Of a stretch of 64,000 bases of DNA, positions 18,601 to 61,262 are shown piece after piece. A program made the translations under genes and the position numbers. The notes below the pieces were generated by a model. It searched no databases, was not told where the DNA came from, and saw nothing but the letters and a program-made list of their open reading frames with translations. The stretch is from Thuidium tamariscinum (Eukaryota > Streptophyta > Bryopsida > Hypnales > Thuidiaceae), in assembly GCA_947034885.2 (NCBI GenBank), contig OX344757.2, positions 21,384,001 through 21,448,000 of the forward strand, written 5' to 3'. Position 1 is the first letter of the stretch. Each line of letters opens with the position of its first letter.

Positions 18601-18682
18601 AATATTCTTTTGAAGTTTTTTATATGTATTTCCAACTTCTTTTTTTAATATAGTGTAAGATGTTGCAAACTGTAGGATCTAC
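15670..18682. repeat. AT-rich repeat-dominated region
   Basis: A degenerate 15-18-bp tandem repeat (CTCCCATATTYGTATYTA) spans about 16485-16640. Copies of the dispersed AT-rich repeat occur at about 17170-17400 (+) and 18050-18360 (-). A module with GTAGATTGTTT and ACAACCATTGGG near 18448-18540 recurs at 55490-55570 and, inverted, near 17790-17830. The open frame 15719-16159 is Phe/Leu/Ser-rich low complexity. No gene was accepted. Confidence 0.55.
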
Positions 18683-18712
18683 GGGTCATTGCAAGAAACA
18701 CTTGTACTATTT
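18683..18712 (+). repeat. Left terminal inverted repeat of the Sola-like element
   Basis: Thirty bases starting GGGTCATTGC and ending TTGTACTATTT. Only position 3 differs from the right repeat. The CTAC duplication lies directly outside. Confidence 0.9.
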
Positions 18713-19632
18713 TGTGTCACATGTTGCGGGCGGTTTACATTTCATGGCATAAGTATTGCAAAAAACATCTAATCAATGCGAAATTTGGAACGAAGCTTCC
18801 TCTAGTAGGAGGAAATGTACATAATTTTTTTCAAATTTATCAAAAATGATTAAGAGGGGAGAATTAATTTTTAAACATATGTCACACATGCTAATTTGTT
18901 AGTTTTTAGTACTATCGAATACCTTTTTTAAAGAGTTAGGTCCTGAGATTTGGTGGAGTTGTTCTTCCTATAGAAATACAACTTCTCAGGAGAGGGATTT
19001 TTGATTACTTAATGCAATTGAGTTCTACATTGCTCAATAGAGAGCAACATTTACTATGAATTTTTGAATAATGGGAATTACTTTTTCCAAATTTTTTTCC
19101 AAATTTTTTTGTGCAAAGTGGAAATACTTCTAGTTAGGAAAAATGGTCTATTTTTATATTAATTTTTTGAAATGTCCATATAATTAACAAAATTACAAAA
19201 CTGAGGCTGCCATTTTCTAGCAAAAATGTCAGTAATTTTTTCCAAGTAGTATTCCAACATACATGGTAGGAGTGCATAGTCCTCGGACGACTACTGTCAT
19301 GCTTTTGCCACCATACACTGGTGTCATAGTGATACCCACAGTTATGCCACCGTGGACTGCTGTCATAGAGATTTAATTACCCGCCACTGCAGATTGCTTT
19401 GATTGCTTTTATGGTGACTTTATGTTCCTCGAACTTTGATCCTTGATGTCATCGACTCATGGCGTCTACACAATGAGACGGATGAATTTCGGGCCGCCGA
19501 AAGAGAACGTTGAGTCCAGTGTAGCAGTTGCTCGAAGGAGCTCTCATATGCAATCGATTAAGCAGATGCGAGGACCAGTAGGTTGTCTTGTAAATTGCAA
19601 ATGCTGAAATTTGATGAGCATCATTGTAGTGC
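18713..19632. promoter_or_regulatory. Left subterminal region and presumed transposase promoter
   Basis: About 900 bp between the left terminal repeat and the transposase ATG. It is AT-rich to 19250, then more balanced with a short imperfect repeat (GACTACTGTCAT, ACACTGGTGTCATAG, GACTGCTGTCATAG near 19285-19370). No TATA element was assigned with confidence. Confidence 0.35.
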
Positions 19633-22600
19633 ATGGAAGTCGATAGGGATAGGAGTGCAGGAGCTAACTCTGATCGTGAAAGGAGGCCTCATGGACATGT
19701 ACGTCTTCATAAGGTTCGTATTCGTGGTCGTCCAAGGCCGCAAACTCGACAGCGTTTATTGGCTACTACGGAGGAGAATCAACGAGAAGAGTGGAGAAAT
19801 AGACAGCGACGTTCTCGTGCTAATCGAAACAATGCGGACTTACCTCCTGCAGAAGATGGAGAACGCGGTGCTATGCCGGATCTTCGATGGGACAATACAA
19901 GACATCGAAGCAATGTCTAGAGGAGTGCAAACCGAGTTAGCGCATCCCTCTCTCGATTGCTTGCACGTATTGATGATTCTAATATCAGAGCTCAGGTTTT
20001 GGAAAAGATGTTCAGTAGTCGTAGCGTTCGTCCATTGCTTCCTCATTACTACCCTACTCCTCAAGAAGCAAGGGCTCAACGGCAGATATTGTGCAACATT
20101 CGCTCTGATCTTGCAGCTATGAAGATCCCTCACTCCTCGGGAATGTTGGCTTGAAAGCGAGCGATCTTAGAAGCAGCGGTGAGTGAATTAGATTGCGACA
20201 TGACAAAATTTCACACCATTCTTGGAACGAGGAAAGAAAATTTGATAGCTGCTGTGGAACGACTACAATCAGCTACGACAGAGAGTTCATCCCGATTTGG
20301 ACTTCCAGCACGAAAAAAATGACAAGGTGGTATCTATGACGAAGTGAAGGCTCTTGTGTTGCGGTGGTGGACTGAAGAAACTCGTGTGAGTCCAGGGCGA
20401 CGGGATATGCGCCGCAAACGTCTGGGTCGAAATTCTTACGACACTCATGCGGCGCATCTCTTGATGGAGCACCAGGTACAGATTTCCTAGATAATCTTAT
20501 TGCCTTCTACACTTTATTTCAAAATGTTGGTTACTGGAAGCCCAAAATATCCATGAGCCATCTTCTTTGAGCCATTGTAGAAGGTCAGGAGTGCAATCAA
20601 AATTGGTAATTCAATTGGTGCGGTGTACAGAACATTGCAGCCATGTGTACAACACACATTTTGAACGAATAGTACCACTCACCCCATGCTCTTAGCCTTT
20701 GCATTCTTTATTCCTTTGATACCACTCAGTTTTCTTTTGTGCTTTGTTTACATCCCCTTGTCATGTTCTTGATATGGCTAGAATGTGGGCTACTTTTTGG
20801 ACTCTAAGGAATTCCCCTATTACGTCTGCATTACGTTTGTTGCGCTCTGTATTCCGGAGACAAACTCTTCAGTTTAGTGTATTACCTTCATTAGTAGTCC
20901 ACCTACAGCTAAGAAGTGTGCACCTACAGCGTCAATACGTTGGAGTCCTTCAAAACTAGAACAGAGTACTGACATTCTTCTACAAGTACCACACCTTACT
21001 AGATTGGACGTACATGTTTTACATAAGATACAATTTGTTAGTGTAATATCTTCTATAGTATTAGAATGTGCATCCACATAACCTTTAGGAAGTGTCACTC
21101 CCTTGCTGTAGTACTTGTGGGAAGTCACTATCATCCTTTGTAATCAGCTAAAGTCCTTCTTTCAAGAACCCAAGCTACAATGTCTTCAGATACTGTGCTA
21201 TGAGATTCTCCCATGCACTACGTTCTCAATACATGTACCATAGACACTACTATGGAACATTGTAGTGGACACTGAAGTATGACATACAACTTCCTAGTTC
21301 ACAAAGAAGTACTACTGTGTCCTATGCACTTCCAAGTCATTGATCTTCCTACCTTTTTTAATGTAAATGACACATATTTTGTATTATAAGACAACGTGAT
21401 AGCCATATGTTAGTATTCTTTAGTACTCCGTGGGTAATGCCCCCAATATTCTCTGGTATTTCTAGTGGCCAGAGAAGTATTGTATTGTAGTGCCAACCTC
21501 TATTGCTGTCTCTCTTAGTACTGAGATTGTACTTCATGATCCCATTTATAGTACTATTGTATCATACATTATACTAAGTCGCTTTCCTTGAAGTCATTCT
21601 CAATATTCTAGGCTTACTATCAGTTCAGGTCATTGTACTAAGTTAGTACTGTTCAGTACTATATAAGCTTCGACTATATTCAGTACTATATTCAGTAATA
21701 TTTAGTACTATATTTAGTACTATATAAGCTTTGACTACTGTACATTGAAGTACTCATAGTACTTATAATACTATAATCTGTAACCCTATACTCATATGAG
21801 TACTATTAAGTTTGGCATTGTAGTTGATAAATAGACTTTCTTTTATGCATTATCACTACTACTGTGCCTTTGTTCAACTTCTGACCGCAACTAATACTCT
21901 GATACAGTTTGATGTACTTTACAAGTTCTTGGTCTAATTATCATGATTTTTCATGCGTGGTCTTCTGACTAATGAGTCGTCCTGTATTGGATCACATACA
22001 GATGCAACTCTTTACTCGCTTCATTGAAGCCCATCCTGATTGTTCCATCCAACACCAATCTTTTATCAATCTTCGCCCGTTTTTTGTTATCAAGTGCAAA
22101 GAACGTAATGTCTGCTGCTATCGCTACCACATCCAAATGTTGTACCTACTGGAGGCTCTAAATGCATTTCGGGACCTGCACAAAGGAGCTCACGTACTTT
22201 TCCTTTGTACTTGCACGTGCATTGTCTGTGACAAAGACGATGAAGGTGTTTGTAATGCTAGCAAGAGCCGATATGGAGGTGTGACGGCCTTGTGGGAAGC
22301 TTTGCTATGTCCAAAGCTAGAAGATGAGGAGTTCCACCGCCCACAATGCTTATTGGGCACCTGCAGACGCTGTGGTGTGAAATTATTTGATGTTTGTCCA
22401 CGAGAAAGGGTGGTAGATGCTTCTCGAACAATCCAGTGGAAGCAATTCCAGTATGAGGTGGTGGGCACATCGGTAGATGGACAACCCAAGAAACGCATCA
22501 AGGAGGTTCTTATTTCATCTTCTTTCCCGGAATTCCTTGATTTCTTCTTGCCGACTATCCAGCACTTCATACGCCACAATTTTGTCTCAAAGTGGCAAAC

Positions 22601-24551
22601 TAATCAAGCCAAGCTTCTACAAGCTTGCCTACAGAGAGGGGCTATTTTGACACATATTGATTTCTCGGAGAACTACACCTTCGAAGCCCAAAATGAAATC
22701 CAGTCTATGTACTACTATTCTGATCAAATTTCCATTTTGGTGCAAGTGACGTACTCTGTAGATGTTTCAGAAGATGCAGTGGAGGGGGGGATGCAATTGA
22801 AGAGAGAGACACACTACTATATCTCTGATGACAGGGAACATGATACAGACTTTGTCCAACATTGCCTCCTTCTATATTGGAGGTGGATGCAGTCTAAGGA
22901 ATCCTCTCCAAACATTCACTATGTCTTTAGTGACGGATGTGCAAGCCAATTCAAAAGTGCCAAGGCTATGTACTTTGTGGCCAGGTGACATTTACTTTTT
23001 AAAGTTCTAACATTGCAAACCATATGCATGGATTGCATGCCTACATGTATTCTTTTCTATTGCAATGACTACTGTATAGTAACGATAGTACTATTACTCT
23101 AGGATTTTGGTTATTTCATGAAGATATATGAAAAATTATATTTCTAGCTGAAGCTACCATTGCGAACTACCACATTCTGAACTGCTGCAATTAACATACA
23201 AAGGGTGTGCTATATTGTTGCAGATATCTAGCCCTTACTGGTGGTTGTAAAATGCTGTGGAACTACTATGGCACAGGCCATGGAAAAGGTGAATGGGATG
23301 GGGCCGGAGCAGTTGTCAAAAGGGCCTTACGGAATGAGCAACTACTCAATTCTCATAGACGATTGCAAAATGCATCAGACTGTGTTCAGTTCCTTGACGC
23401 TACTATGGCTGGACAAGTTCCCAGTCAACATGGTGGCATGAGGTTCCTTCTTCACTTGTTTCTCTGTTTACTTCATAGTAAAGTATTGGATAAATTTTTT
23501 TTAAGGTACTCATAGCTTGTGCATGTGTATTACTGGCGTACTATAAATTGTCATGTAGCAATACTATTAGAGCATGTCTTCTTCGGTCCTCTGAAGTACT
23601 TGTCCTCAGTACCTCACTCCATCTATAGTACTTGGAAGAAAAAAACCGTGCAAGTACTAGTACTATAGACTACTATAAAAGATTGTTAGTGAGGAGAAGT
23701 TCGCCATAGTACTTCTACTTTGCGTGGTTTTCTTCTACAATGAGTATTGTACATCTGTTGCATGCTGCATATAGCAAGAGATTTTGAAGACTAAAGATAA
23801 TAATGGCTTATATGTTGACAGTGCATTCAAACTTCTGTGCAGGTCATACCGTTATTTCCATCACATAGGAGTGCAAGATGTTGACCGTGCAAACACAGAA
23901 TCTTACGATGCAATTCCAGGTTCTTCGAAGTTGCACTCAATTTTTGTTCCTGATAAGTATGACCCTACAAAGTTGTTATTGAGGCAATTGTTGTGCTTCT
24001 GTGGCCCTTGCTTGGAGGAAAATTTTGTTCATTGTGAGAAAAAAACATATGCTAGTCCTTGGACTGTCTAGAAGATTCAACCAAGGAATGTAGCATTTGC
24101 AGCTGCGCATCTTGCTGAGGAAGACGAAGATGACAACTGGGATTACGAGTACGATGGTGAGTGCATGGAGGACATAGTGCAGCCAGGAGATAATTTTGTT
24201 GTGCCTGCTCCCGAAGACAATGATGAAGGTGTGTCCTTTTACATTCTGCAATGCCAACGGCCAAAGCACATTGTAGAATCAGACTTTCAGTGTGTATGGG
24301 GAGGTCAATTCCAAGCAGGGGACTCAGTGATCACCGGAAGATACTACCAAAAATGGGGACATCGAGACGCCAACAACTATGTCTACTTGCGCCGTTCGAG
24401 GGAGGCATTTATGGATGCTAATTCTGTTCTTGCCTGCAAATTCCAAATGATTCTAAGGCAACACAGGGTGAAAGGTGGAGATGCTGTGTATAGCTTGCCA
24501 GAAGAGACTGTTGATGTCATTAACACAGCACTTGAAGAAATGAACCTATGA
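19633..24551 (+). pseudogene. Sola-like DDD transposase, 4 exons, about 917 codons, four premature stops
   Basis: Exons 19633-20475, 22002-22984, 23224-23442 and 23843-24551 join in phase with GT-AG introns and end in TGA. The Arg-rich N terminus contains an AT-hook-like RIRGRPRPQTR. A conserved block includes LVLRWWTEETRVSPGRRDMR, and exon 2 has a cysteine cluster (CLLGTCRRCG). Candidate catalytic Asp motifs are THIDFSENY, YVFSDGCASQFK and GTGHGKGEWDGAG, the last in exon 3. Exon 4 has CFCGPCLEENFVHC, an acidic linker and GRYYQKWGHRDANNYV. In-frame stops lie at 19918 (TAG), 20152 (TGA), 20320 (TGA) and 24069 (TAG), while the frame stays open on both sides of each. A functional copy elsewhere in the genome is likely. 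The overlapping 179-codon frame at 19583-20122 is a shadow. Confidence 0.8.
20476..22001. repeat. Transposase intron 1, packed with AGTACT motifs
   Basis: This 1.5-kb intron carries more than a dozen AGTACT or TAGTACTA palindromes between about 21300 and 21850, including two copies of ACTATATAAGCTT. Similar motif-rich stretches occur at 23500-23760, 24700-24920, 27200-27330, 29390-29900 and 31590-31780, all within the element. Confidence 0.6.
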
Positions 24552-25075
24552 TCTTCACTGGAATGACTTAGGCAATCAAATAGTCTCATCATTGGAATGC
24601 ATTCACTGGAATGATTTGGGCAACCAAATAGTCTCATTATGTTGCCCCCATTTCCACAATCTTCCTCTCTACATTGAGGACTTTCATTGACTTTGATAAA
24701 TCTCTACCTCAAATGAAGTACTATTCCATACGTAGTCATAGAACTTAGAGTTCTAGGAATGTTGCCTAGTACAACAAGATAGTATTATTACGTACAAAAA
24801 TTGCAGAAATAGATTCAGAAGTTCAGAAATAGTACAGACTTACTATATACAAATAGTACTATATATAACTTTTCTGTACTATGGAGTACGCAATAGTGGT
24901 AATAGTACCACATTCTGTGCATCTGACTACATAAAGTAACAAATTTGTAGTCACCATTCCTTGAAATAGTGAACATAGTCTAATACTGCGCTTCTCAAAA
25001 GGAGGCCCTCAGTGACTGTCCAGAGTATGTAGTGTCCTCTTCTTGTCTCAAACCAATATGTCCTTCATTGTCATT

Positions 25076-28000
25076 TCATTGTCCTCTATTTTTTGAAGAG
25101 TAAGCTTTGCATTGTGGGCTACCACATTCACATTCGAATGGAAGTATCATATTCTCTTTAGTGTGAAATGTACATCCATAATCCCATGTTAATTCTTTTC
25201 TAGCTTCCACTTGTCGATTTGTAAAGAAAGCTACCTACAACACCAACAACAACATGAGCCCAAACTTCATACAATGTAAACAAGGTCGTTGTTTTGATTA
25301 GCAATGTTTGTACATCCTGGCATTTAGTTTGCTTATGGGTACTTACATGATACAATGTTGGGATGCTGTGTTCAATGAGCACTGGGATATCCATTAGATT
25401 AGCATCTCCACATCTGCCTCCACATTGACAACCACTATTGTACATGAAATTCCATTGCTGGTTTCTACCTCTTGTGTAAAACCAAAAACCTCCAAGTGCA
25501 TAAATACAATGTAAAGGAAGTAAAGATTGTACCTATGGTTTAGCCATCGAGCTACATTTGTATACCTTGATGCATCGATGCAAAGCAGTAAGTCATCTCC
25601 TAGACTCACCTCCGACTGCCAATGTGCATCAAGAGCAACAACAAATTTCTTATTGGTATCGCGTTTCAAGAACTCGGCATTTGTTATTATTTCCCTTCCA
25701 TATTCAAATACAAAGTCTCCGGGGCAAAGTCTCTCCAATGTCTGAATGCCCCAACCTTTGGACTTATTTGCATGGAAAACTTGTAGTGCTCCAACTGCAG
25801 TCATTGACATGAAAAAAAACATCCAAGTGCAAACATCTTTATGAGAGTGCTCTCAATACATGTGGAAGAGTGAAATGCCAACGAAGAATCCATGAATGCC
25901 TTTAGAAAAGAAATAAGCATAATGGTAGTTATTGAAGGTTTAGGGTATACCTCAAATGGTCTTCGCACGCCTGCTTGCACAACTCTATTACGACAATTTG
26001 GTCTGCAAGCACATACACCATAGCACTCACGAATGTATAGTCGTTCAACATGCCCACTGCAGCGTCCCTTTTCATATTCGGGACAAGAGGAACATCCTCC
26101 ACAACGCACAAGTCCTCCGTTTCTTAGTGACCGTGGGCGTCGAAACTACAATGCCAAATAAAAGTACATTATGTACAGAATGACAAAATAGCCATTTCCT
26201 TTTTACATGAAAAACACGAGTACTTTAAACTAGACACACTCATTCAGGTCATTAGTACCGTTTCTAAACAATGAGTACTTTCAAGCAATAGACATATAAA
26301 GATGTGTAAACTGACCTCTGCTAAGTACCATCGACTCAATACATTGTTTTCGACGTATGCTATCCCTCCGTTGTCATTGGAGTGTAAATTGTTTCCGATG
26401 TCACTGCAATATTCTTCACAAGTTGACAATGACAATGGATGAGCAGAGCATGCAGAAGCTATTGCGGCTACATTGACAGACTCATGTAATATGGGACTGC
26501 GGACATAAGTGCAGCCAATACCCAATGGTGACATGCAAGCGTTTGCACCACCGTAGTCACACAATATTGGAATTGCTTCCAATCCTCTTGACAGGTCACA
26601 TATAACCGTTGGCCTTGTATCCTCTGGAGAGCAACATATTATACCCAAGAAAAAAAGTTGCCAAGAAATATATATTATATACTGGAAAGTGCACGAATAC
26701 AATAAATATTAGAACCTCATTCATGGCATTCCAGTGACTTTCTTGGCATTTCCTGAACTGCCTCCTACTCTCGAGATAAGGCCCGCAAACTATAGAACCA
26801 CAAGGCAACCTTAAGAAATGGAAATGCTATTGTGGTTGAAAAAACTCTCAAAAGCACCGGGAGACAGTCCTCCCCCTCCACGCATTTTCCACGAAGTTGA
26901 AGATGAGTTGAAGATGCGCCCGAATTTTAGTTTTTACCCACCTTGTTCGGGCTACTAGTACCGGCAACTCGTGGTGTTGAAGCAGTTCCTGTAGATCCTA
27001 CCACTGCTGCAGCTGTTCTTGGACGCAGCAGCCTACGAGATGGCTCTGGAGGACTAACACTTTTTGATGGAGCACGAGAGCTTCCTTTACCTGCAAGAAC
27101 ATTGCATATAGAAAAGAATAGTTGTAAGCCACTTGCGTCTTCTATGCCTCTAAAGAATACAAAGTACACACGTTCATTTACAATATAATGTACAAAGAGT
27201 ATTCATGGTCATAGCCTCATATGTCGAAGCTATACTATACTAGTCCTTAGTACTCCAATATTTACAATATGCACAATGTATAATATTACAAAGTACTATG
27301 CTGTACTACCATGTACTACGAAGAGCTATATTAGTAATAGGAAAATGAACTTGTATAGCCAGTCACAATGGATACTGCAATGTACCTGCGGCTGGACGTT
27401 TCAATAGGCCTTTTATTGGGCTGCTAGCAGAGTCAGCAACTTCTGTTCCTTCGCACTTCTCTCGTATAGCCTTCGTATTGTCTGGCAAATCCAAATGGTC
27501 TTTAGGTGTTGAGCCTTCCTTCACCTTGTTGTCCACACCAATCTCAAAATCCCAAGGGTCTTCTGCATCTTCTTCTTCTATATTTTTTGGACCTTCATCC
27601 TGTAGAAGTTCACAGCATTTCACGCATCATCTATGACCTCTGATTGAATATTTGTTTCTATATACCATTGGAGAATAAGATACACCATGAAGCCAATGCA
27701 CTAGAAATTGCAATTCCTACAATCAAATGGAACCTAGAAAAGAAGATTCAATCATTTCACTATATACAAAAGTCTACACACAATGTCAAAAGGGACATTA
27801 CATACCTTTTCTGGTCCACTTCCTTCATGGCAATGAGGTGTAGCTGGGGTAACATCAAGTTCCATATCACCGAAGTCTACAGTTTTAGCATCTAGTTCAG
27901 CAAGGTCTTTGTCAAGGTCCGACAGTGGTGGGCGCTTTTTCTTGATGTTCACAATGATGTCATTAGCAACATCTTCCGCTAAAGTAATAGGAGCAGTTTG

Positions 28001-31000
28001 TGTCCCTTCTGGAAGTGACTGTGGAACCAATATTGTGTGCTCTGGTCCACGCGATGATGCTAAAGACTTCGGTGTGCTTGTGCAAATCGGCTTCCCTTCT
28101 GGCTCAACTCGAGAGCACTTTGAATCAAACGGATTTGAACTGCCGTCACCTTCCAAATTAACTCGAATAGGAGTGGAAGGAGGTATTTCTTTCTCATCAA
28201 CCATTACTGACAGATTTAAATAGTGCTTCTCTGTAGTGAAACACTTTGACAAGGTGCTGTCAGAGGCTGATACACTAGGTGCACCAGTTCTTGAAGAGTA
28301 CAGTTCTGCGCAATAATTACAATACAATGATTTTTATGAGAAACCGCCACATATTGCCACAGCTCATTTATAACAACAGTATACAAGTCATGAAGAAAAT
28401 GTCGAACTACACATAATGCCGATGGACACTGCGATGGATGATGGAGGTACTATGATGAATGACAGCAGTTAAAGACTAGTTGGGATAGGAAGCAATATCA
28501 GTCTGCTAAACATATATAAAAATACCTGCAGGAAGCCTAGTACAAAGTGCTAAGTAATGTTCTTGTTAAGTAAGCATACAAACACATGAGATGAAAGAAA
28601 TGAAGAACTCTACTTTACAAACTAGAACTAAGTAACGTACCTAGTGCTTGAACTACCGGAGGTTTCAATATATTAGTGGCTCTACTAGGTAGTTTCTGCT
28701 TTCCACTGTTGTCCACATCGCCTTGCCGCACTTCTGGAGTGCACTGGGTTACAGAAAAACCCCAATTTTTCAGCCACTTCGGGTGCACCGTTCCACAATT
28801 AGAATGAGCACATAAAGTAGTGCTTTTAAACCATTGAGTAGCACACCAAGGGTGATATACGTGTCCACAAGAACAGAAGAGAATATCTCCAAAAGGAAAT
28901 CCTTCCGTGCATACAGCACAAGTCGGCTGACGTAACGTGATGTCCAGTATATTGCTGGGGACCACGTCCTCTAAGGGGTTGGACAGTGGATGAGGGTGAA
29001 GTAACACTCCATCTCCTCCGCGTGACAAATCTTGCAAGTGCTCTTCTAATGCTGTCAGTCGACATTGGGTACCTAGCACCTTGCTAGTGACATCATCAAG
29101 ACTATTGCGCAAGTCCGCTTCAGTGGTAGTCAATTCTGTCATCTTTTTGGAGTGGCCATCAAGTAACCTCTTGAAAATCTCAGAGGCACCTTTTGCTCCC
29201 ATCTCCGTCATTGTCTCTTGTACTTGCTGAATTCCAAGGAGGCTAGCACGAAGTTGATCAGCAGCATGATCTGCTTGTACTTGTAGATCTTCAGCTTTGG
29301 CCTCATACTTATGGAGCGCATCTGTTAAGAAATTCACCAATCCTTGTACCTCAGCCAGTCTGCAAGGAAGAGAAGCTATAGTTAGAACTCAAGTTCATAG
29401 TAGTCTTATATCGTACTACTGCGTACTTTTACATACTAGTCTATACTCAATGGAGAAGTATGCATCACTACATCCCTATAGCATAGTACTGAGGTACTAA
29501 TGATGAGGTAGTCATAGTACTTATAGTACATGTTAGTACTAAGGAGAACTACTAGTACATCTCAGTGTGAAGGTACCCTAGTAAAGAGCAATCCGTATTA
29601 GAGGAATACTTAGTCGTAGTACTTGGTAGACACAGAAGTCCTACTCCTAAACCCTGTGGTACTTGAGGTCATATGAGTTTAGGCAATGAATCACATTAGC
29701 AGCAACTAGTATAAATTAGGACTCCGTGAAGGACGAAGAAGTAGTGTATGTGAGTATCTTGAGAACTTTTCAGTACTATCTATGGCCGGGAAATACAGCT
29801 CATAGTACAAAGAACACTTGGAATACATACTATAACTTGTTGTAAGTTGAACTACAAGTATTGTGCTCTACTACTCCCTAGACAATGATGTTCATAGTAC
29901 TAGCAACAAAAATATAGTAGTAGAAGTACATAGTCATATTCTTGAGAAGAAGTCAATTGACTATATTACTTTGACCTTTACAGTGTATACATCATTGATC
30001 ATTCAGTATAGATGTTCTGAACTTGTAGTACATTTAAGCATAATGGGACTATCCTACATTGCTACTACAACATTGAAGTACATGCACTTGATGAAAGTAA
30101 TTCATGTTGGTAGCAATATTTACAAAGAGTTACAATGAGTAGCACACTGTAATACTTGTTGTCAAATTTGCCCTCTAAACCTCTTAGATAGCTGATAGTG
30201 TAGGACCATACTAGAACATGCTATATGAATGGAGAAGTCTTTCATAGTAACAGGAAACGTATATAGAGACTACAGGTAACATACCTTTTAGCCCGAAAAC
30301 TGTCACTGAGAGGAGGACATAGAGGCACCACCTGACGGCGTGTCTTGGAAAAATCACCAGTCTCCTCTTTAGCAGCATTGAAGAGTTGGATGCAAGGTTT
30401 TTTCTCATCGGAGACCTCCAAGTATTTGGATATGACCTCTTGTCGTGCTATTTCTTCAAATGTTTTATGTTGTGTATCAGCCAACTTCGTGAGCCAAGTC
30501 TTCACATGTCTAGCAAAGAAAGTTCGTTGCACCAAATTCGTTTCTGCTGCAAAGCCAGCCTAGTTGATCTTATGCCCCTTTGTTTGCATAGTCCACCCCA
30601 TAGCGAACTCCTTCCCTACGTGAGTAGGGCATTGGGTCTTTTGGTAGATCTGGCAGTACAATGTTTCCATTTTTTTTCGAAGTGTAGGAGTGAGCCTCTC
30701 CGCAAGGAGGAATCCATTCCGCCCTTTCTCTTCACCGAACAAAGCCTCCACATCAGCTTTGTTTACATCCTTCTCCATACGCAATCTGTGAGGGTTGAGC
30801 CCATCTCTCGGCAGTTGGCAAGAAGTGTGGAAGATGTCCTCAGACATTGCAGTGGGAGGACGCTTCGATGGTTGGCCGAGCAAATTCAATTGACGACGAC
30901 ATTCATGTTCTTCAAAAATGACTGGGGTGTCAGCAACTTTCTTGCATTTTGCTGGGTGGCTCACCAGCTCCTGCTCTGACATCTCATGTTCAGAAATGTC

Positions 31001-31297
31001 TTGTCCACTGCCTTGCGATTGGGACTCTGAGACCACCGGCTTTGGCTTCTACTTGATAGGGGTTCCTTTCTTACTGCCCTTATTCTTGGCCTTACTAATA
31101 CCTTCCCTTGAAGCACTTGGCGCTGCCAATGAAGCCTTCTCCATTGTGGGTGGCCGCGGTGGACCTTTCTTCTTGCCTTTCTTCTCATACGTGACTGTGG
31201 CCATGTCATCTACAGCACTGCTGTCTTCAGCATGCGCATGCTAAGCCCCAGATTGCCTACCACGTGGTTCAACAATTGTAGTCTTCATCTTTGCCAT
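25076..31297 (-). pseudogene. Transposon-borne pre-SET/SET/post-SET methyltransferase with coiled coil and RING/PHD-like finger
   Basis: Exons, 5' to 3': 31297-30285, 29359-28641, 28305-27806, 27599-27386, 27090-26942, 26826-26716, 26621-26316, 26145-25951, about 25779-25533, 25413-25347, 25234-25076 (stop TGA). The product is about 1,220 aa. The N-terminal exon is Lys-rich. Exon 2 has a coiled-coil segment then CAVC, CSCGHVYHPWC and CAHSNC zinc ligands. The SUVH/SUVR-type hallmark DLSRGLEAIPI opens the pre-SET region, a Cys cluster (CGGCSSC to ECYGVCACRPNCRNRV) follows, then SET motifs KGWGIQTLE, NVARWLNHRCGDAN, ELTWDYG, and post-SET CECGSPQCKAY. This points to an H3K9-type lysine methyltransferase. 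Stops TAG at 31241, 31049 and 30560 break the first exon. The junction 25951 to 25779 is out of phase by one base. The 5' end may extend to the exon at 32.1-32.5 kb. Confidence 0.8.
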
Positions 31298-32121
31298 AGG
31301 AACGCCCTGCACTACATATGCACACAATGAATATGAACAAGAGAATAAGAAGAGCCACTTATTGAACCATCTGAGAAGCTTGAAATCCCTATTTAAGGAA
31401 TAAGGAAGCTATGGCGGGCTATACATAATTGGAAAACAACCCTACTCTATACACACAAATGTATACAGCCATTTAGGAATGTATGAAGTAGAACAGAAGA
31501 AAATTTAAGGGGAAAGAAAAGCTCATGTACTAAGATCCACAAAAATGCACCTTAATCAACAAGAAAAATTGTCTTCAAGTGTAGTCCTATGGAAGGAGAT
31601 GCAGTACTATTGAGTACTGATGGAGTACTATATCATAGACTGTATTACTATAGTAGTGCGGAAGTTGCCAAAGTACTGGTAGATTGCCAACGTAATGGTC
31701 GAAGTATACTGCATACCACAAACCATAGAAAAAGAGGAGTAAGAGTTCCGTGAAGTACACATATAGTATACCTTAGATACTTCTCACAGAAATAAAAGTA
31801 CATAGCGGACTATTATTTTATGTGAACGTGGACTCTAAGTCAACCTCATTCAGTAAGTCAAAAAACAAATTGTGAGGCAATTGTTGAACACCAAACATTG
31901 TATAGACTTTACCAAGGCAGTACTATAAGCATATCATATTTGTGATAAGAGGACTGCGGCGGTAATCAGTTAATGGTCCAATCCAAATAGTATAGAATGA
32001 ATAGTCTGTAGTAATAGTCATTTACTAAGCAATAGAGATCAATGTACAAAAATAGAAGTAAGTATAGTGAGAAACAGAGCAGTCATACAAAAGTATGCAA
32101 AACTCACTAAATTTAGCCTAT

Positions 32122-32532
32122 TCATTTTTTCAAATGGATGTCTACACCCTTGAAAAGCTCTGTCAAACTATATTTTCTTTTGGCTCTTGAAATACAGCCT
32201 TCTATCGAGGATGCAAGGGGTACTTCTTTGGGCAAATGAAAACATTCTAGCTCTATTTTGTGTGGATTGTCATGAAGAATTCTAGAGCACTCGGCATTGC
32301 TCTTCTGTACTAGGTCCTCCAAGGTAGTCTTCTTTGTCTCAAAAAAAGGAGCCCTTGGCTGTAGGTCCACAGAATTCACAAATTCTTTGGCAATGCCAAG
32401 AGGAAGGTCCTGATTTTCTCTCAAATTGTGCAACTAGCGCTTGTCATTGGGTTCATCCTTGTCGTCACTCCATACGACTCTCCTTTTTCGTCTATGAAGA
32501 GGGGCTGCTCGCAATCTCTTGTGTTTTTCCAT
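32122..32532 (-). pseudogene. Small basic ORF near the right end of the Sola-like element
   Basis: The frame runs from ATG at 32530-32532 to TGA at 32122, 136 codons, with one internal TAG at 32434-32436. Its first 20 residues are strongly basic (HRRKRRVVW). The rest is hydrophilic and unrecognised. A GT donor near 32142 could splice it in phase to the exon that starts upstream of 31297, making it the first exon of the SET-domain gene. Otherwise it is a separate small protein. Sequence alone does not decide. Confidence 0.5.
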
Positions 32533-33590
32533 ATGGGCACTATTTCATTTCAATTAGCGGGTGACTGATTACAATTTCAGAATTAGAAGACAACGTCGAA
32601 AGAGTCACACATCTACATGCAAAGTAACAAGCTTCTGCTTCCCCCTACAGCAGTCAGTTCCTCTGCCAAAGAAGACCAAAGTATAGGAAGTTGGAGGCTA
32701 TACGGGAAAATGAAGGCAAACTCTATCGCAAGTGATTACATGAGGCATTGTTCTATTTTAAAGCGCATTGCACTACCCTAAACCCTTGAAGCCGTTCCTA
32801 CACTCTGACAACGAAGGTATGCTAAGAATACAACGAAGCATCACCCTAAAGTATGTGAAGAAAAAAAAATGCAAATTAAAATTGAAGTGCAAAAAATGAC
32901 GACAAACCTTTAGAGACGGTGAAACTTCTACTTACACAGTTGGCGCACAATTGTAGAACACCCTTTGCATTCCTACGCCCACGGCATGTTGATGTCCTCT
33001 ATTGCGAAGCGGAACCTGCATCCACAAAAACCGCACATTAAATTGTGTTTTCGTCGCCTTTCCCTCACTCCTCACCAATTCAAACTAAATAGGGAGTTAG
33101 AACCCTACCGGCAATGAAGAAAGAAATCGCTACTCATTTCTCTGCCTAAGTCGCACACAAAATTCCAAACTGCATTCTAATTCGATCATGTACCACTTAG
33201 AAGAAGTCGGCAATGTAAGAAATTTTCGACTCTTACGGCGCAAGTTCCAAGTCAACCCGAAATCACAATCTTTGCTTTCCCAAAGTACGCTCCTCTGCTA
33301 ACATCTCGTCGTGATTTGTGCAGAGAACCCTAATGCGCACCGGTGCACAAATTCAAACGGCCAAATGCAATAAAGGACATGACGGCTAGGTAGAATCTTT
33401 CACAATCAAAGCATGACTGAGCCACTACAGTCATCCATGAGTGTCAGTCGCTTCAATGCGACCACGTGTCATTTCAGCCGTAGATTTCAATTCCAATCGA
33501 CGGCCCATGATTCATCCTCAGAACGTCTCATAGTACTCACAGTACTTGTAGTACAAGTAGTACTAACCCTGCGAAAATAAAAAACGCAAC
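32533..33590. promoter_or_regulatory. Right subterminal region and presumed promoter of the cargo gene
   Basis: About 1 kb without a convincing ORF. Base composition is balanced, with a short AGTACT-rich tail (33530-33575) just inside the right terminal repeat. It presumably holds the start site of the minus-strand gene. Confidence 0.35.
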
Positions 33591-33620
33591 AAATAGTACA
33601 AGTGTTTCTTGCAATGATCC
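33591..33620 (-). repeat. Right terminal inverted repeat of the Sola-like element
   Basis: The reverse complement starts GGATCATTGC and matches the left terminus over 30 bases with one mismatch. CTAC follows at 33621-33624. Confidence 0.9.
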
Positions 33621-34286
33621 CTACACACTTTTGGGTAAAATGTTTGAAATATGGAATCTAACTCTTTGAAAAGAATAGAAAATGCTTTCTTTGAAATCCA
33701 AGCATCAAGATCTTACAATCAATGAAGTTTTTTTATTTTGAATTTTGAAAAGGGTGTTCAAGTTGAACAAGTTAACCAAAGGACCCTTGAACTTGATTTC
33801 TTAAACATTAAATCTAGACAAAAAATTTAGCTTTGTTTAAGACACTAGTATTTGGAAGCAATTTTGGGCCTTTAAATATAAAAGAACTTTAGAATGTAAG
33901 GTATGAATCATTTGTTTAATGTCATCAAAAAAACTCTTCCATATAAATACTTTTTTCAACCACATTTGAGTTGAACTATCATGTTTTTTCATATTTTTCC
34001 TACACTTAGTGGTCTATTACTTGTAAAAGTTCCTTTGAACTTGAATTTATGATGATATGATAAGAATTCCCTTTCAACAAATTATTTGTTAGGTTGAAGC
34101 CTAAAGACCAACAAAATGTGTCTCTCACATGATTGGATGGAAATATGGGATTTGTGGCACTACCTAGTCTACATTTCTTTAGTTGGTACAAATGCATTGC
34201 CTTGCACTCCCTACCAAGTTTTGTTTGCATAGTACAAAAGTCTTTGATTTTGAAAATAAATTATATTATTGGAGGTTACTTGCTAA

Positions 34287-36622: not shown

Positions 36623-39600
36623 CTACAAAAAATACATCTTGTTTCTTATTCTTACATGCACATTCTCAGGCACAATAGGATAATAAGCTTGGGGATGACA
36701 CGCAACTCTTCGCTTACTTCTCTTAGCAAGATACCAAACTCGACAACGGAATGCAACCAAATGGGCATAATAAGCCGGTGTTGCTATAGACACGGCTCGT
36801 GTACACCGCTCAAAAATATAACACAATTTATTTGTAAGATTCTCAAAGTCATCGGCCCTGCAAACATATCCAAAAGTTGTATACAAAGTTAGCTCACTCC
36901 AAATGAATGCATACCATCTTAATTGCACTCAAACTTTGGACTAGATTATCTTTGAGGATGGACTCTTAATTAAGTGCTCTGACATCCATATTCTAAACAA
37001 TGTTTGCAAGTGTTGTTTTGTCCAACTAATTTCTTATTCATGCAATGTAATGCTTGAATATTGAAATAACAACCTTCCTTATTAACAGTAAGTGAGAATT
37101 TTATTCCAAGATATGAACAAAAATATACAAAAAAAATCAATAGGGTATTGAGGCATTAAGAGTTTAAGGGTTGATAAGATTATTTGGCAGTGTCTTACTA
37201 TAGTGACAAGTTTTGAAATGCAGATTTAAAAAAGCAAAGTATGCGGAAATACTAGCTTAGTCTACACATCTACACTTTCTATGGTAGGAGACTCAAACTC
37301 TACTAAAGGCAATAAAAGCAAACTTAAGACAAAGGTACCGGCATTTTGCTTCCTTCAATGTACCAACTTTGCACATTTCTAGAGATGGTCACTTTTAATG
37401 ACCATTGTATTTCAACTTCAAAAAAAAGTAACTAATTCCACAAAGGTCCCCAAAATATGAAACGACTTGGGTTAGTTGTAACGGATTCCATTTTTTTTCC
37501 TACAAAAAGTTTACTGAAAATGGTTTGAAAGAGCTTAGCTTTTTCCAAAAAGCAATCAACTCTTCAATGGTCGCTTTAATCCAGAAAGATGCCACACATG
37601 TTTAGTGTCTGCTGAATGATAAGGAATTCTCTTGTGTAGGACAAAACTACAACTATTCATTCTCAGAATTGGGGGTGGAAAATGGAAATCTTCTATAGCA
37701 GGTTGATTTCGAATGAATTCTTTTGGGTTTTTTTACACCTATGATTCCCACGGTTTCAGAAATGATGATACTCCTGGCATCCTTCCAGGGTTAAGGGCCT
37801 CCTACATTACATGGGGGAATCAGAGCTGGCCCATAGAAGATTGGCGAATTCAGAATCGCGGTCTTCTACTCTAGGTGAGGGCTAAGAAGACTTCTGGGAA
37901 AGAAGAAATGCATTGTGCTCACTGATTTCGTAGCTCACCGACAAATCGCAGAGCAGAGTTCGCAACCCCTAGAATGGAGATTTTGAAGAAACAAGGCTCT
38001 GTTGTAGAGAATGGAGATTCTTACGTGAATTTGGTCCCATCAAAAACCATGTGATAGTGAGCGGGTCGACTTGTGCCTCTCTCGCCTGCGTGGCTGCACA
38101 AGTAGAAGTCAAAGTGATGAGGGTGAACGATCTTGTCATCCACGACAGTGCCCGGCGGCACATTCAGATCCCGGCAACCTGAAAGCGCTGCTGAAGTCTT
38201 CGGAGGATTCTTGGCATACTTTTTGTCGCAGATTCTCCGGAAGAGCCGAGTGTGATGCCGCTTCTGGACCACTGCGAATGTAATGCAAGGCTCGTAGCCG
38301 CGCTGTGATAATTCACTGCCCGCTTGATGCGCAGCCTCTTGCACGGCCTTCACCTCCGTTTCCAGCACCTCTTGGAATTGGCCTTCCCCCACACCATCTC
38401 GGTAGAAAACAATGACCTGGAACCATGAGAATTTGCATTATTTAATTGCTTACAACCGTGATGAATTCGAACCCTCACGCATACTTGTAAAATGGGTGCA
38501 TCTCAGAGTGCCAAAGCCTTTGCGAGGGTGTCCGTAACGTAAGGCAGGTTGGAATTTGTTTCGAAAGCAAATTTCAGAGGTGGCAGTCGATCAAATGCCA
38601 GTGAAAGTCTCAGGTCTAAAAGACCGTTGTAGATTTGAGGGGTTTTGACGGCCGATGTGTTGGTTTTAGTTGGACAACTCCAACCTGCTCCAGTTTCACT
38701 GCGGCGACTCAAATCTGTGCCTGTTTCTTACCGTTAGCCTAAACCGCGGGCTGGAATTTCGTGAAATTCCGCCAGCGTACCATAATGTGACCACATTATT
38801 CACTTGATTGTATGCCTCTAATCTAGTTCAGAAAGTTACATGTTATCTAGTAAACAATTCGGTAAGTTGAAGAGTCTGAGAGGCATAGTATTAAGCAAGA
38901 TTTTTGATTCACTCGACTGGTACCCACAATCATACACTAATCTGACTCCCGTGGATGTTCTGACCTGAGGAAGCAAGTTTTGATTTGCTCGGTGCCATTC
39001 CAAGAGAAGATCCAAAACCATTTCCTGTAGGTTCTCAATGATTTCAGCGTTTCGTTTTTGAACTCGATGGCGTGCAATGTAGCGCCCTGAATCAGGCCAA
39101 TCGTTACTAGCCACGACTGCTGCAATAGATGGTTCGTCGGGGTCGCACATGTCTGGGTGAGTTACGTCTGCCCCGAAAAATATGCAAGTCCTATTGTGAA
39201 TGCTAGCAAGCATTCCAACGTGATCGATAGTCTGATGGAGACGAAAATTGCGTCCGCCACACTTCACATTAATCTTCATGAGCAAGTTCGTGGCAACAGT
39301 CTTGTTGAAGCACTTGTCACAGAGGTAACCTGAACAGCCAAAATTAAGCTCTGTCAGTAAAATGTACACAGCATCAGAATTAATTCAAGAATGCTAAATA
39401 TATGCCTCCTCGATAATCAGCAGCAGGAATAGAATCCGCATGGTAATGAGATGTTATGAGATTAACTTCATCCCTTGCAAATCACATACTGCACTCAGGT
39501 GATGTAGTGTAGATTTCATCACCACAATGACGTGAGCTTGCTACTCACTCTGTTGCACTGGGTAGTAATTGACAACTTGAACAGGGACTCCTCTCTCAAT

Positions 39601-56645: not shown

Positions 56646-59600
56646 TCACAGCAATTCTTCCTCCGGTGTCTCCACTACTCGTTTAGTGGATTCTATGTAT
56701 TCCTCTCTTTTTGTTCCCACAGTTCCGTGTATGTCTTCATCAATGTTCGGTTCTACTATTGGAGGTTCACTTGAAGGAAGGACAGAATCCACTACTTCCT
56801 CCAACACAGCATTAGCAACCGACACCAATTGTCCTTCAGATATTGTTGGAGACAACGAAGCGGGTTCCAAGATTGAAGTAACTAAGCGATAAATGAATTG
56901 CCCTCCTTCTTCAATGCGTTGATATCGAACGTGCTCCCTATCATAGAAAAATCCATCTCGATCTTCTATATAATTTTCGTCCCCGACATTGGTATATGTT
57001 GACAATGCTGATACAGATTCCACAACTGTTGATGCCTCAGCAGTGGATTGACCTACTTCATTGAGGTTCTCCTGCAAGATCGGTTCATAAACTGGAGATA
57101 ATGAAGAATCAATCATTAACTGCCCAGCCTGATCCCCAATTGTATTTTCTGTTGGCATCGAAACTCCTTCTGATGTCACCGGTGGTACGGAAGATGTTTC
57201 CAAATTCAGTACAACTTTGTAATAAATTTCCCTTCCTTCCTTCCCTCCCTTTATATATTGAACATTATCTTTTGTGTAGAAAAATCCGTCTTCACCTTGT
57301 GTCAATGGTACTGACTCCAACGATGTAAACTCTAACGTATCTGGAAGTTTTGCTTCATTCACTTCAGCCACTTCCGCATTGACTTCTGTTTCCTCCACTT
57401 CCATATCTGCTACACCATGTACGCCTTCTGGAGGTGCATAATCGGGATCATTCTCCGAGTCTTCAAGTTCTTTACGTACTCTACGAGAGTTGTTTCCAGA
57501 ATGAGTATCGGATGAACCCAAATCTATGTCAGGATGCCGTAACTCATCTGAATCGCTTTCTCCATAGGTACTTCCATCACCATCTGATTCTGATGCTCCT
57601 GAGTCAACAACTCTTTCTTTCCTCTTTCCCTTCTGTTTCTTGCGCTTTGTCACATGATGTCTCCCTCTATCTTCTGAAATATCATCTGGTGATTGCACCA
57701 CTCTTTCAAGCCTTCCAAGTGGTACATCCCTATGCACTTGAGAAGCACCTACATCCGTTGATATCTCTCCAATGTTCCTCTCTTGGATTACACGACCTTC
57801 TACTACAGTACTAGTACTGTTCACCATCACCATCTTATCCCTGTACATCAACTTCAATGTATTATATATAAACTGCGTTTTAGTAGAAACACCTTCCATG
57901 ATGATGATGTCTGTTCCCACAAAATCATTTTCAAGAATAGTGGGCACAGCCATTGACACGCCCAATACCACCAACCTCCAATTGCTGGGCAAAAACATAC
58001 CCACCATCTTCTTTACCTCCATAGGTTCTCTCTTGAACTTGTCTTCCATGCGTGGCAAAACTTCTGTGCTCCAAACATCTTCATACATCACTTGTAGGCA
58101 TACTGGCATTCTTGGAAGGTTATCGATAGGTGAACACTCACTTGGACAGTGCATGATAATTGCCACATCCCCAACTGGTTGTACCTTCATTTCCCTTTGT
58201 TGTCCATGATGAAGATCATGTATGTATGTTGGAACTGTCTGTGCTTGGAATGTCCATGTCCCACGTAAGTATGTGCTACCCTCCGGTAATGCCATCTTCA
58301 TTCTCATTGATTCTTCAAAGTATATGCCCGATGGAAATAAGAAAACGGCATTCCATCGAAGAATTCCAGTCATCCACTTGTTCAATTGGGAAAACACTTT
58401 GTTGTAGTCTTCATCACACCATTCTTTGTCTTCTCCTTGTGTTCCTCCACGCCTGCAATCGAAAACCCACAAATACGGCTTCCCAAGCTCAACATACTCA
58501 TCTTCAAAGAAACCTCCCCTACATCTCAAAGGCATAGACCTTTGAGGGCCTTCTTGCTCTTGTATTTCAAGTGACACTTGCCAATCCCATCTAGCATTTG
58601 CCACATTTTCAACATCTCTATTGTATCCTGTGTACCCGTTGCGTCCGGCTTGAATATCCTCAAAATGTTGCCTTACAAAAGCTGGAATCAGATGCTCAAA
58701 ACTATGCAACGCTGGAACTCCCTTCACAATGGGAGCATTCCACAAACTTTTCGAATCTTTCATCAGTGCCTAGCCCATCATCATGAATTGCCTCCCTTGT
58801 GCACCTCCATAGCGACTTGTGTCTATAGCAAAAAACTCATCCATAGATAGAGGATTTTCATCCCCTGCTTGCACCATAAGAAATCAAATTTGATTTCTGA
58901 CTGCATCTTTCCGTTGCAAGCGATCAACTGCATATGCAAGTGTACCCTTCACAGGAATCTTTGATGTAGCACCGTTGAAATAATAATTCTGTGACTCCCG
59001 CCATCCTTCATTTATTTGCTTGGCGGCCATTTGCTTTGCTAATCGGACATAATTGTCTCTAGAGACTCCTGTCAACGGCCGTAACCAAGATTGAACCATT
59101 TCACGGCGACCTTCAGTTCCATCAACCGTTTGATCTAAGTTTGTTGTCCTCGCCTTCTTCTTCCACTTCATCTCCACTTCCTTGCTGAAGAACAATTTGC
59201 CTTCTTCATAGTCTTTACACACTTGCAACATTGCCTCATAGGATTCCTCATCTTCGTTCCAGGCATGTCGAGTGTAATCAACCAACCTCTTCGCCAAGTC
59301 TCGAATACCCATTCGCTTCGGTAGATTCTTGGTCAAGTGCAATGCACTTGCTGCCATTATTAAGGCCTTTGCCCTCTGTGAATCATCATGCCTAGCAAGC
59401 GCACTTGGAGAACCACATGCTTTCCAAATATCGCGAAGCTTCACCATATCTTCATAATAAGTAGTGAAAAACTTACGATCAAATTCGCCTACGTTGATTT
59501 TCATTGATGCTTCAATATAGAACAATGGATTGTTGTACACCACAAATCTTCCTCTCCGTTTCGCAAAACGGTCATTGAATTCAGCATCTGACATTCTTTT

Positions 59601-61262
59601 TTCTCGGTTCTCCTCTTGAGCTCTCTTACAAGCTGCAATGATATGTTGTCCATCCACTGGCTCCCAAATAATGTACTTCTCCAACCACGGGATTCTAGCA
59701 GCACTTGAATCCCCTTCCGTTGTTGACGGACAATAATGGAGAAATGCTAACTCCAATTCATGTGCAGCGCCTTCTTTGCTAAAAGACTTCTCCACGAGTT
59801 CCACTTCTCCATTTTCATTGGTCATTTCCCGAAGATAGGCCGTGGGACGAAGAGTTATCGTACTTACTGCATGTGCCTCTGATCCCCTCAGACGATCATA
59901 AATCTCATTGACTCGTGAAGGCAGTAGAATTCGGTGGTTCGTCTCCATGTTCTTTACAATGCGTATGTTTTCAATGTTGGCTTCAAATATCAAACCTTCA
60001 CTCTAAATAAAACCTGCCTTGTACTTTGTCTCACTTGGAAAAACAACCGGTGCTTCATTGACATTTCTAGCCACTGCTCTCGTACGTCTATCTTCTTGTT
60101 CTTCCTTAGAAGATTCTTCATCATTGTCAGCATCATCTTCATCATTGCCTTGTGCTGGACGTCCTTCTGCTGATACTCTACGTTGCTGCCTCTGTACAGC
60201 TGAACGAGTTTGGACAATTCTTCCTTCATTTCTCAACTCTGAGGTTGTAGAACGCCTTTGGCCTCCTTGATTTGTTGCAATTTCATGACCAGATAATTGT
60301 GTATAGTACGTAGACCGTCCTCTACCTCCACTTCCTGAACCCCGTACTGGAGGTGGTCCTTCATTGCTAATTCCACTTCCCCTACCTCCAACTTCACCAA
60401 GTGTTATGTCTCCCTCATGTTCCTCAGCGACTGTGGCTGAAATGGTCCTCTCAATGTGAATTGGTTCACTTTCTTCTGCACCAAATACCAATTCCAAAGC
60501 TCGTTGTACAACTACATTACTTCCTTGTACTGAGACATCTCCTGGTATGGCGCCTTCATTCACAGCAGATGGTTCTCCGACTACTTCCATTGCTGAAGAT
60601 GAACCAGTTCCACGAATTGTTTTCTATCTTTGTACAACAACCCCCTCCTCTGCTTCATTTGTAGTCCCTGATTCCATACCAACATGCTTTCGGGGACGTT
60701 CTTGTATCGGAACCCAATTCACATTTAGAGGTGCTGCAAACAATCGATGAACTTCTTCTACATCCTCTGGCTCCCTTGCAAGAAGTTGTTTTTGGATAGG
60801 AGTTTCATTGCTCCTCGCCATGTCTTTATAAGATCGACGTTCCATAAAATTTCTCCGTGCTTGCAAAGCTTGTTGGGGAGATAATCCCATGAATTTTCTC
60901 ACCATGACTTCTCTTTCAGCCTTCAAATTGTTCGGAATGGTTTTCCAAAAATCAACCAGAGGTTTCACTCCAGCCATTCTAGGAACTACTTCAAAAAATG
61001 CTTGGGGAACTGGTGCAAGCATAAGCTGTTTCTTCAACTTATACTTCGTAAGGTCTTTCCCCTTACTACTCAAGGTTACATTCACGCCTGCATCCCGCGT
61101 ACCCGCCAGAGCCATAATAGTTCCTGCTGAAGATCCCAACGGTGACAAATTACAGCCCTCTTGAATTGCAAACTTAGTTGTCCATAAACTGGGATTCACT
61201 TAATCATCAATTGTAATCCACCAACCGTGCTCCACCCATGTCGAGTTCACTTTCAATGCCAT
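56646..61262 (-). pseudogene. Decayed 1,538-codon single-exon ORF with a possible ParB-like segment
   Basis: One frame stays coding-like from ATG at 61260-61262 to TGA at 56646, broken by TAA 61200, TAG 60624, TAG 60003, TGA 58884 and TAG 58770. Each break sits within otherwise continuous frame, so these are point lesions. An acceptor-like TTTCTTTTTAG just upstream suggests a 5' leader exon. The middle third contains NHRILLPSRVNEIYDRL and WEPVDGQHIIAAC, distantly like the ParB/sulfiredoxin fold (VDG-x-H), but this is weak. The following part has a hydrophobic, Trp-rich region (PYLWVFDCRRGG) that could be an enzyme domain. The C-terminal third is acidic with a Lys-rich patch (KRKKQKGKRKERVVD) and a duplicated module of about 50 residues (DGFFYTKDNVQYIK and DGFFYDREHVRYQR). 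I do not recognise the family; a transposon- or virus-derived origin is possible. Confidence 0.6.

Follow-up and report, generated by a model that had tools for sequence, protein, structure and literature searches.

A SUVR-like SET gene as the usual partner of the transposase in a putatively Sola-like transposon clade of the moss Thuidium tamariscinum

Structure of the element and its copies

In this study, we analyzed a 64,000-nucleotide stretch of the genome of the moss Thuidium tamariscinum (C9:21384001-21448000; "the window" hereafter means this whole stretch), in which positions 18683-33620 are occupied by a transposable element with two genes: a transposase gene on the plus strand, and a long convergent gene on the minus strand (gene 2) that contains a SET domain. 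By searching the whole genome (363,211,507 bases in 19 contigs, labelled C1, C2 and so on), we found that the window element, a two-gene DNA transposon, is a decayed member of a large clade in this genome, and that a transposase with a convergent gene 2 is the usual architecture of the clade, the SET gene being no stray cargo.

The original prediction, made from the letters of the window, had placed 30-bp terminal inverted repeats (TIRs), matching at 29 of 30 positions and flanked by CTAC, at the two ends of the element, and the genome data bore this out. The 22-base core of the TIR occurred twice in the window (at most three mismatches) and never in 100 dinucleotide shuffles, and the 30-base TIR pattern (one position G or A) had 104 matches in the genome, including the window's two, with no match for the reversed control. 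Just as a genuine element would imply, other copies ended at the same bases, each with 4-bp target duplications of its own, and the same gene pair was found both in copies of the same family and in diverged families.

Twenty stretches around TIR matches in the genome were compared with the window element. A second uninterrupted copy (C1:13643834-13658697; 14,864 bp) was approximately 96% identical and had the same ends, and two further copies with these ends (C2:38298372-38336947 and C7:1758682-1801878) were swollen by insertions to 38-43 kb. The SET gene was present in the C7 copy, for which no catalytic-exon match was among the transposase matches listed (the transposase half lay outside the stretches compared). 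Target duplications of 4 bp were observed at seven of the eight paired insertions: CTAC (window), AACT (C2), ATCT (C7), GAAT, GATC, ACAT and TTTT. The eighth, the C1 copy, was flanked by TGTA and TATA, with one mismatch. Two ends on C6 that lay 43 kb apart had different flanks and therefore did not delimit one insertion; they were treated as two elements. Among the 14 remaining stretches, 13 had only 39-48 terminal bases in common with the element and one had no BLAST match. Finally, two short complete elements with the same TIRs, of 734 and 724 bp (L018:501-1234 and L019:8777-9500; duplications ACAT and TTTT, respectively), are nonautonomous and too small for either gene.

In addition, 18 kb was read for each of three diverged families, whose transposases are 79, 75 and 64% identical to that of the window (R79, R75 and R64), and for a fourth lineage at 45% (R45). 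The R79 element measured 15,363 bp, with a perfect 30/30 TIR and the duplication GAAT, and the R64 element was bounded by the TIR and GATC; the right end of R75 and both ends of the R45 lineage on C6 were looked for and not found. A chance or artefactual origin of the element was ruled out by the genome copies, the target duplications and the co-localisation of the two genes (see below).

Transposase gene

As had been predicted, the plus-strand gene encodes a transposase, probably of the DDD type. Its catalytic exon can be read without a stop for 339 codons. Six homologous proteins were found, and among the named relatives are those of Ceratodon purpureus, a moss, and Klebsormidium nitens, an alga. 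Alignment of the catalytic exon with these six homologues revealed 35 invariant columns, and the aspartates of DFSENY and SDG were invariant in all seven proteins, the third D being placed by eye in the next exon. A Pfam scan of the transposase gave no match. The predicted fold of the Ceratodon homologue P0004, based on a seven-row alignment, was poor (mean predicted local distance difference test score 58.6), and no PDB match at E 0.001 was obtained; the best weak rows included RNase H (E 0.03-0.04) and an integrase (E 0.15), beside MutSbeta. An assignment to a superfamily from the structure was dropped, as the model was too weak.

The founding paper on Sola transposons is reportedly that of Bao et al. 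in 2009. In the available excerpts of later descriptions, Sola elements have a DDD transposase, 4-bp target duplications and TIRs and can exceed 15 kb in size (PMC10741241), and a Sola1 element of the moss Physcomitrella is tabulated (PMC9033089). The window element agrees with this description in its 4-bp duplications, its TIRs, a length of about 15 kb and a moss host, and probably in the DDD residues; the Sola assignment of the original prediction agrees with the published hallmarks. On this likeness to the published description, we regard the enzyme as a putative Sola-like cut-and-paste transposase. It appears rather unlikely that it belongs instead to a different DDE/D superfamily, named or not, that makes 4-bp duplications: the descriptive nature of the likeness, the lack of a Pfam match, the poor fold and the lack of a PDB match would be compatible with this, whereas the duplications, the probable DDD residues, the size and the host fit the Sola description.

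Domains and exons of gene 2

The long convergent SET gene was also predicted correctly. Between 31297 and 25076, its exons fit together in phase (Table 1), and the order in the product is N-terminal domain (N-domain), coiled coil, RING-type zinc finger, linker, (pre-)SET, SET and post-SET. Neither the N-domain nor the RING exon had been recognized in the original prediction. The N-domain is of an unassigned kind and has homologues in P0014-P0016. The RING finger (PF13639) of the window copy scored just below the Pfam cutoff (E 8e-6; 26.4 bits versus 27.3) and was matched in three of the four families. The SET domain of the joined window exons passed its cutoff (E 1.4e-13) and was found in all four families. 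The motifs NH, CxDANL and ELTWDYG were kept in seven of seven aligned rows, in keeping with the catalytic motifs of a SUVR-type SET domain; the R of NHRC lies in a split codon and was read in the window only, and the first two residues (LQ) of the modelled SET exon are intronic. Among solved structures, the best SET matches were the histone H3 lysine 9 (H3K9) methyltransferases EHMT1/2, followed by Clr4.

The original prediction of a complete pre-SET/SET/post-SET module was correct for SET and post-SET, and not for the completeness of pre-SET. The cysteines of post-SET and of the second half of pre-SET are present in the window gene. On the other hand, the first half of pre-SET is degenerate in the window, R79 and R75, with its cysteines lost in the window family, whereas in R45 these cysteines are canonical by eye, apart from an in-frame stop there. 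No Pfam Pre-SET match was obtained for the window protein, nor for the plant SUVR P0008, so this test alone is not decisive; one of the four family members scanned did match. No Pfam match to WIYLD was found in the scanned pieces of gene 2, whose model reaches approximately 31300. The joins between N-domain and RING and between RING and linker have an identical splice phase in the window, R79 and R75 (by eye). RING and SET therefore most likely belong to one gene, and the alternative of two neighbouring genes was rejected for now on the same ground.

Table 1. Positions of the element features in the window
Feature	Positions	Strand	Basis
Left target-site duplication CTAC	18679..18682	none	read directly
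Left TIR, 30 bp	18683..18712	+	29/30 versus right end; genome matches
Transposase N-terminal exon (approximate start)	19630..20475	+	72, 64 and 50% identical to R79, R75 and R64
Transposase catalytic exon: DFSENY (D codon 22659), SDG (D codon 22932)	22002..22984	+	open frame, homologues; exon ends by eye
Transposase exon with third D (codon 23297, HGKGEWDGAG), 3' end approximate	23224..23445	+	compared by eye with P0002-P0004
Transposase C-terminal exon (approximate start)	23838..24548	+	alignment with homologues and families
Gene 2, end of SET (ELTWDYG), post-SET cysteines, stop codon	25076..25234	-	family alignment
Gene 2, SET exon completing NHRCGDANL	25347..25413	-	family alignment
Gene 2, SET exon, splice acceptor without AG in the window copy	25533..25780	-	Pfam SET on joined exons
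Gene 2, second half of pre-SET	25951..26145	-	family alignment
Gene 2, degenerate first half of pre-SET (approximate start)	26316..26622	-	family comparison
Gene 2, linker exon	26942..27090	-	splice phase
Gene 2, linker exon	27386..27599	-	splice phase
Gene 2, linker exon	27806..28305	-	same-phase join to RING exon in three families, by eye
Gene 2, coiled coil and RING-type zinc finger exon	28641..29359	-	PF13639; kept in relatives
Gene 2, N-terminal domain exon (MAKMK...)	30285..31297	-	P0014-P0016; R79, R75, R64
Right TIR, 30 bp	33591..33620	-	pairs with left end
Right target-site duplication CTAC	33621..33624	none	read directly

Decay of the window copy

Both genes of the window copy are broken, a further point beyond the original prediction. 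The transposase has in-frame stops at 19918, 20152 and 20320 (N-terminal exon) and at 24069 (C-terminal exon), and the N-domain exon of gene 2 has in-frame TAG codons at 31241-31243, 31049-31051 and 30560-30562. Moreover, the AG of one SET splice acceptor is missing in the window and C2 copies, and is kept in the C1 and C7 copies and in the three diverged families. With these stops and the missing AG, neither gene of the window copy is therefore likely to give a full-length product. The stops were not taken as a sign of methylation-driven decay, as the statistics were mixed: the observed/expected ratio of CpG was 0.54 in the element versus 0.55 and 0.65 in the flanks, whereas TAG+CTA (1.06 versus 0.79 and 0.71) and CCG+CGG (0.53 versus 0.73 and 0.69) leaned towards such decay, with no significance computed.

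Occurrence of the gene pair in the genome

To describe how the two genes are distributed, we used a search with the catalytic exon of the transposase, which gave at least 119 genome matches (best 119 of 327 candidates scored), and two SET searches. The search with the SET protein of the element gave at least 181 matches (best 122 of 440 candidates scored), of which the best 150 were used, and the search with the Ceratodon SUVR P0007 gave at least 111 (best 72 of 368 candidates scored). The merged set, from which one N-terminal match and the host's two SUVR genes had been left out, comprised 130 SET loci. All pairing counts below hold among the matches listed.

A convergent SET locus lay within 20 kb downstream of 94 of the 104 transposase loci with at least 42% identity to the window, at a distance of 2.0-13.6 kb (median 4.9 kb). 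The pairing was seen at nearly every level of divergence: 2/3 loci at 90% identity or more, 22/23 at 71-80%, 36/42 at 55-67% and 34/36 at 42-46%, versus none of 15 at 38-41%. The third transposase of the closest group, in the swollen C2 copy, had its SET gene at 25.8 kb, and extending the limit to 30 kb raised the counts to 97/104 at 42% or more and 1/15 at 38-41%. In contrast, random placement of the 111 SET loci from the search with the element SET protein in 200 trials paired on average 0.45, and at most 3, of the 119 transposases, by a rough control that drew positions from the first 27 Mb of every contig regardless of its length. The three diverged families and the fourth lineage (C4:595271, C4:16787371 and C1:2581991; C6:4906663) all had the order transposase, convergent SET, RING and N-domain (4/4). 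The pair has thus been kept together through deep divergence, to the point where transposases are about 45% identical. The original prediction, in which a SET methyltransferase was not a standard part of such elements and might be optional cargo, understated its place in the clade.

Three side observations were made in these searches. Several dispersed SUVR-like SET loci had no listed transposase (among them C2:35052818, C11:4765859, C5:20142469 and C6:26861892), and are perhaps further element families with a transposase too diverged to match. Fourteen of the 36 transposase loci in the 42-46% group were located on C11 (17.5 Mb, less than 5% of the genome), versus none of the 68 at 55% or more; possibly, C11 is a sex chromosome or another special chromosome. 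R45 also had an extra plus-strand open reading frame (ORF) upstream of its transposase (C6:4903157-4903612; L035:495-950) that resembled the N-domain of gene 2 (34% identical, E 1.8e-20). This hints at a role of the N-domain for the DNA or machinery of the element itself; as the left end of R45 was not found, the ORF may lie outside the element.

Selection and origin of the SET gene

The ratio of nonsynonymous to synonymous substitution rates (dN/dS) was analyzed between the window copy and R79; synonymous sites were near or past saturation for more distant families. The SET exons had a dN of 0.164 and a dS of 0.895 (dN/dS 0.18; 215 codons), close to the transposase (0.15; 829 codons), and the ratio was 0.24 for the N-domain (332 codons), 0.32 for the RING exon (238), 0.36 for the linkers (232) and 0.63 for the degenerate half of pre-SET (102). 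Between families, purifying selection thus acts on the SET part. Among the 96% identical copies the ratio ranged from 0.16 to 0.95, mostly above the between-family values, as expected for decaying copies.

The SET tree contained 15 rows: eight presumed element rows, five SUVRs and two other SETs. Element SETs and plant SUVRs joined apart from the two other SETs (support 92/96), and the five SUVRs (moss, legume and both host SUVRs among them) formed one group without any element row (support 90/98). By sequence, then, the SET module of gene 2 groups with plant SUVRs and falls outside the five-member SUVR group. The transposase tree and the SET tree had compatible branching. The uptake of the SET gene looks old, or else the element genes evolve fast, between which the tree does not decide. 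The SUVR genes of the host itself are separate loci, at C1:41478900-41482741 (68-83% identical to Ceratodon P0007) and C1:43260228-43261814 (39-68%).

Plant SUVRs (P0007 from Ceratodon, P0008 from Clitoria, P0009 and the host SUVRs) resemble the element protein in a SET/post-SET region with NHRC and ELTWDY, and, over the part that matched, P0007-P0009 shared 37-47% identity with the SET of the element. We take the NHRC-type group to be SUVR1/2/4. P0007 and P0009, though not P0008, match Pfam Pre-SET, and the element protein differs from the plant SUVRs by its N-domain and RING finger. All three SUVRs scanned (P0007, P0008 and P0009) have a WIYLD domain, which is ubiquitin-binding by its Pfam description, and RING is typically a ubiquitin-writing domain. 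Because the scanned SUVRs have WIYLD while the element protein has RING and no WIYLD match, a reader-for-writer swap is suggested, with RING in place of the SUVR WIYLD.

Comparison with known systems

A link between SET and transposase is familiar from SETMAR, a host protein in which SET is fused to a mariner transposase. PDB entries 3bo5 and 3f2k, presumably of SETMAR, turned up in our searches against solved structures; SETMAR is like the window element in linking the two functions, and unlike it in being a host fusion and no gene of an element. More directly, SET histone methyltransferase genes are reported as part of the HarbingerS and MuDR transposons of Phytophthora (Kojima and Jurka 2014, cited in the 2025 paper PMC12730594, of which excerpts were available). 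These are likewise DNA transposons with a SET gene of their own, from other superfamilies and another kind of host, and here too a SET gene was found inside the ends of a multi-copy element. Since the Phytophthora elements have been published, SET genes in DNA transposons are, as far as these excerpts go, a known kind and not a new one. According to the same excerpts (PMC12730594), fungal DNA transposons with TET/JBP dioxygenases also carry an epigenetic enzyme as a transposon gene, in that case one that acts on DNA methylation and was taken up by several superfamilies.

For Sola itself, an excerpt reports that amoebozoan Sola2 can carry Fanzor1 (PMC3627910), whereas no histone methyltransferase is named in the excerpted descriptions (PMC10741241, PMC9033089), unlike in the window element. 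In the literature surveyed by titles and abstract openings, we found no Sola element with a SET gene (a prior note in Repbase or in the founding Sola paper is possible), and neither a Sola-like plant clade with a SET gene as the rule nor the RING fusion.

Possible role of gene 2

Overall, the results are probably best explained by a two-gene Sola-like transposon clade with an element-encoded chromatin modifier. As to mechanism, we consider it most likely, at a probability somewhat short of even, that the gene 2 protein works against the silencing of the element by its host. The N-domain would guide the protein to the DNA of the element or to its transposase; a local target would receive ubiquitin from the RING finger, and the SET domain would shift the H3K9 methylation state, such that the host silencing loop is not maintained.

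Several points weigh against this explanation. The proposed function of gene 2 is predicted from its sequence, and all eight copies read have at least one lesion. The half-lost pre-SET zinc cluster in the window family may reduce or change activity, and a repressive writer could just as well hold back the parasite that carries it, or act on a non-histone protein. The RING exon, the linkers and the first half of pre-SET evolve faster than SET. Among the plant SUVRs, the WIYLD comparison covers P0007-P0009. In the tree, a single clade of all element SETs was neither shown nor rejected (approximately unbiased test, p-AU 0.089), and for two of the eight element rows (C2:35052827 and C6:26861676), which have no listed transposase nearby, the element label is presumptive. 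In addition, for 33 of the 130 SET loci no transposase was listed within 60 kb. These include the C7 copy of the window element, which has no catalytic-exon match listed, and at least one SET gene of another kind (C7:20171669).

The retention of a SUVR-type SET gene with its catalytic motifs through deep divergence would also be expected if the protein laid H3K9 methylation on the element's own copies and limited their expression and damage, by which the element would persist in a haploid-dominant host. Our results do not separate writing the mark from diverting it, and selection for restraint on a single element is weak in theory; we therefore consider such self-restraint possible but unlikely. 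Alternatively, gene 2 could be a cofactor of transposition that methylates or ubiquitylates the transposase or another non-histone protein, in line with its frequent co-location with one transposase clade, the compatible trees, and the second N-domain ORF upstream of the R45 transposase, by which the N-domain may serve the transposition machinery. This appears quite improbable, as the best sequence matches of the SET domain among solved structures are H3K9 methyltransferases. Host genes can be captured by transposons, and insertions within copies were seen here (the 38-43 kb copies), so gene 2 might be a passenger without a role in the element: a host gene that was captured a single time, or one that happens to lie between two terminal repeats. 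Such a passenger would hardly lie on the same side and in the same orientation in 94 of 104 loci (among the matches listed) with a dN/dS well below 1 between families; element SETs also fall outside the host SUVR group, and chance is contradicted by the random placement and the co-localisation counts, which makes this explanation very improbable indeed.

Returning to a modifier that counters silencing, a fuller scenario, which we put forward only tentatively, is that a transposon clade acquired an ancient plant SUVR, whose WIYLD was then replaced by RING and an element-specific N-domain. The result would be a self-guided "ubiquitin plus H3K9" writer, kept together with the transposase as an anti-silencing machine through much of the history of the clade in this plant lineage.

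Gene 2 probably encodes a chromatin-modifying enzyme carried by the mobile DNA itself. A plant DNA transposon clade with a histone methyltransferase as a usual gene, represented by 94 paired loci and several families in one genome, makes it testable whether transposon-borne writers escape, tune or exploit host silencing. Informative contrasts in methylation, expression and insertion pattern would be those between families with a full and a half pre-SET, and with the 38-41% transposases for which no SET gene was found within 20 kb. With the RING fusion, a step of ubiquitin writing may come in beside a methyltransferase that has plant relatives with a ubiquitin-binding domain.

Other features of the window

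Outside the element, the window contains a piece of a gene with a Piwi/Argonaute domain at 38836-39384 on the minus strand (PF02171, E 3.1e-19). Further downstream, at 56646-61199 on the minus strand, four long consecutive open frames without a Pfam match and with a strong GC skew are possibly another mobile element.

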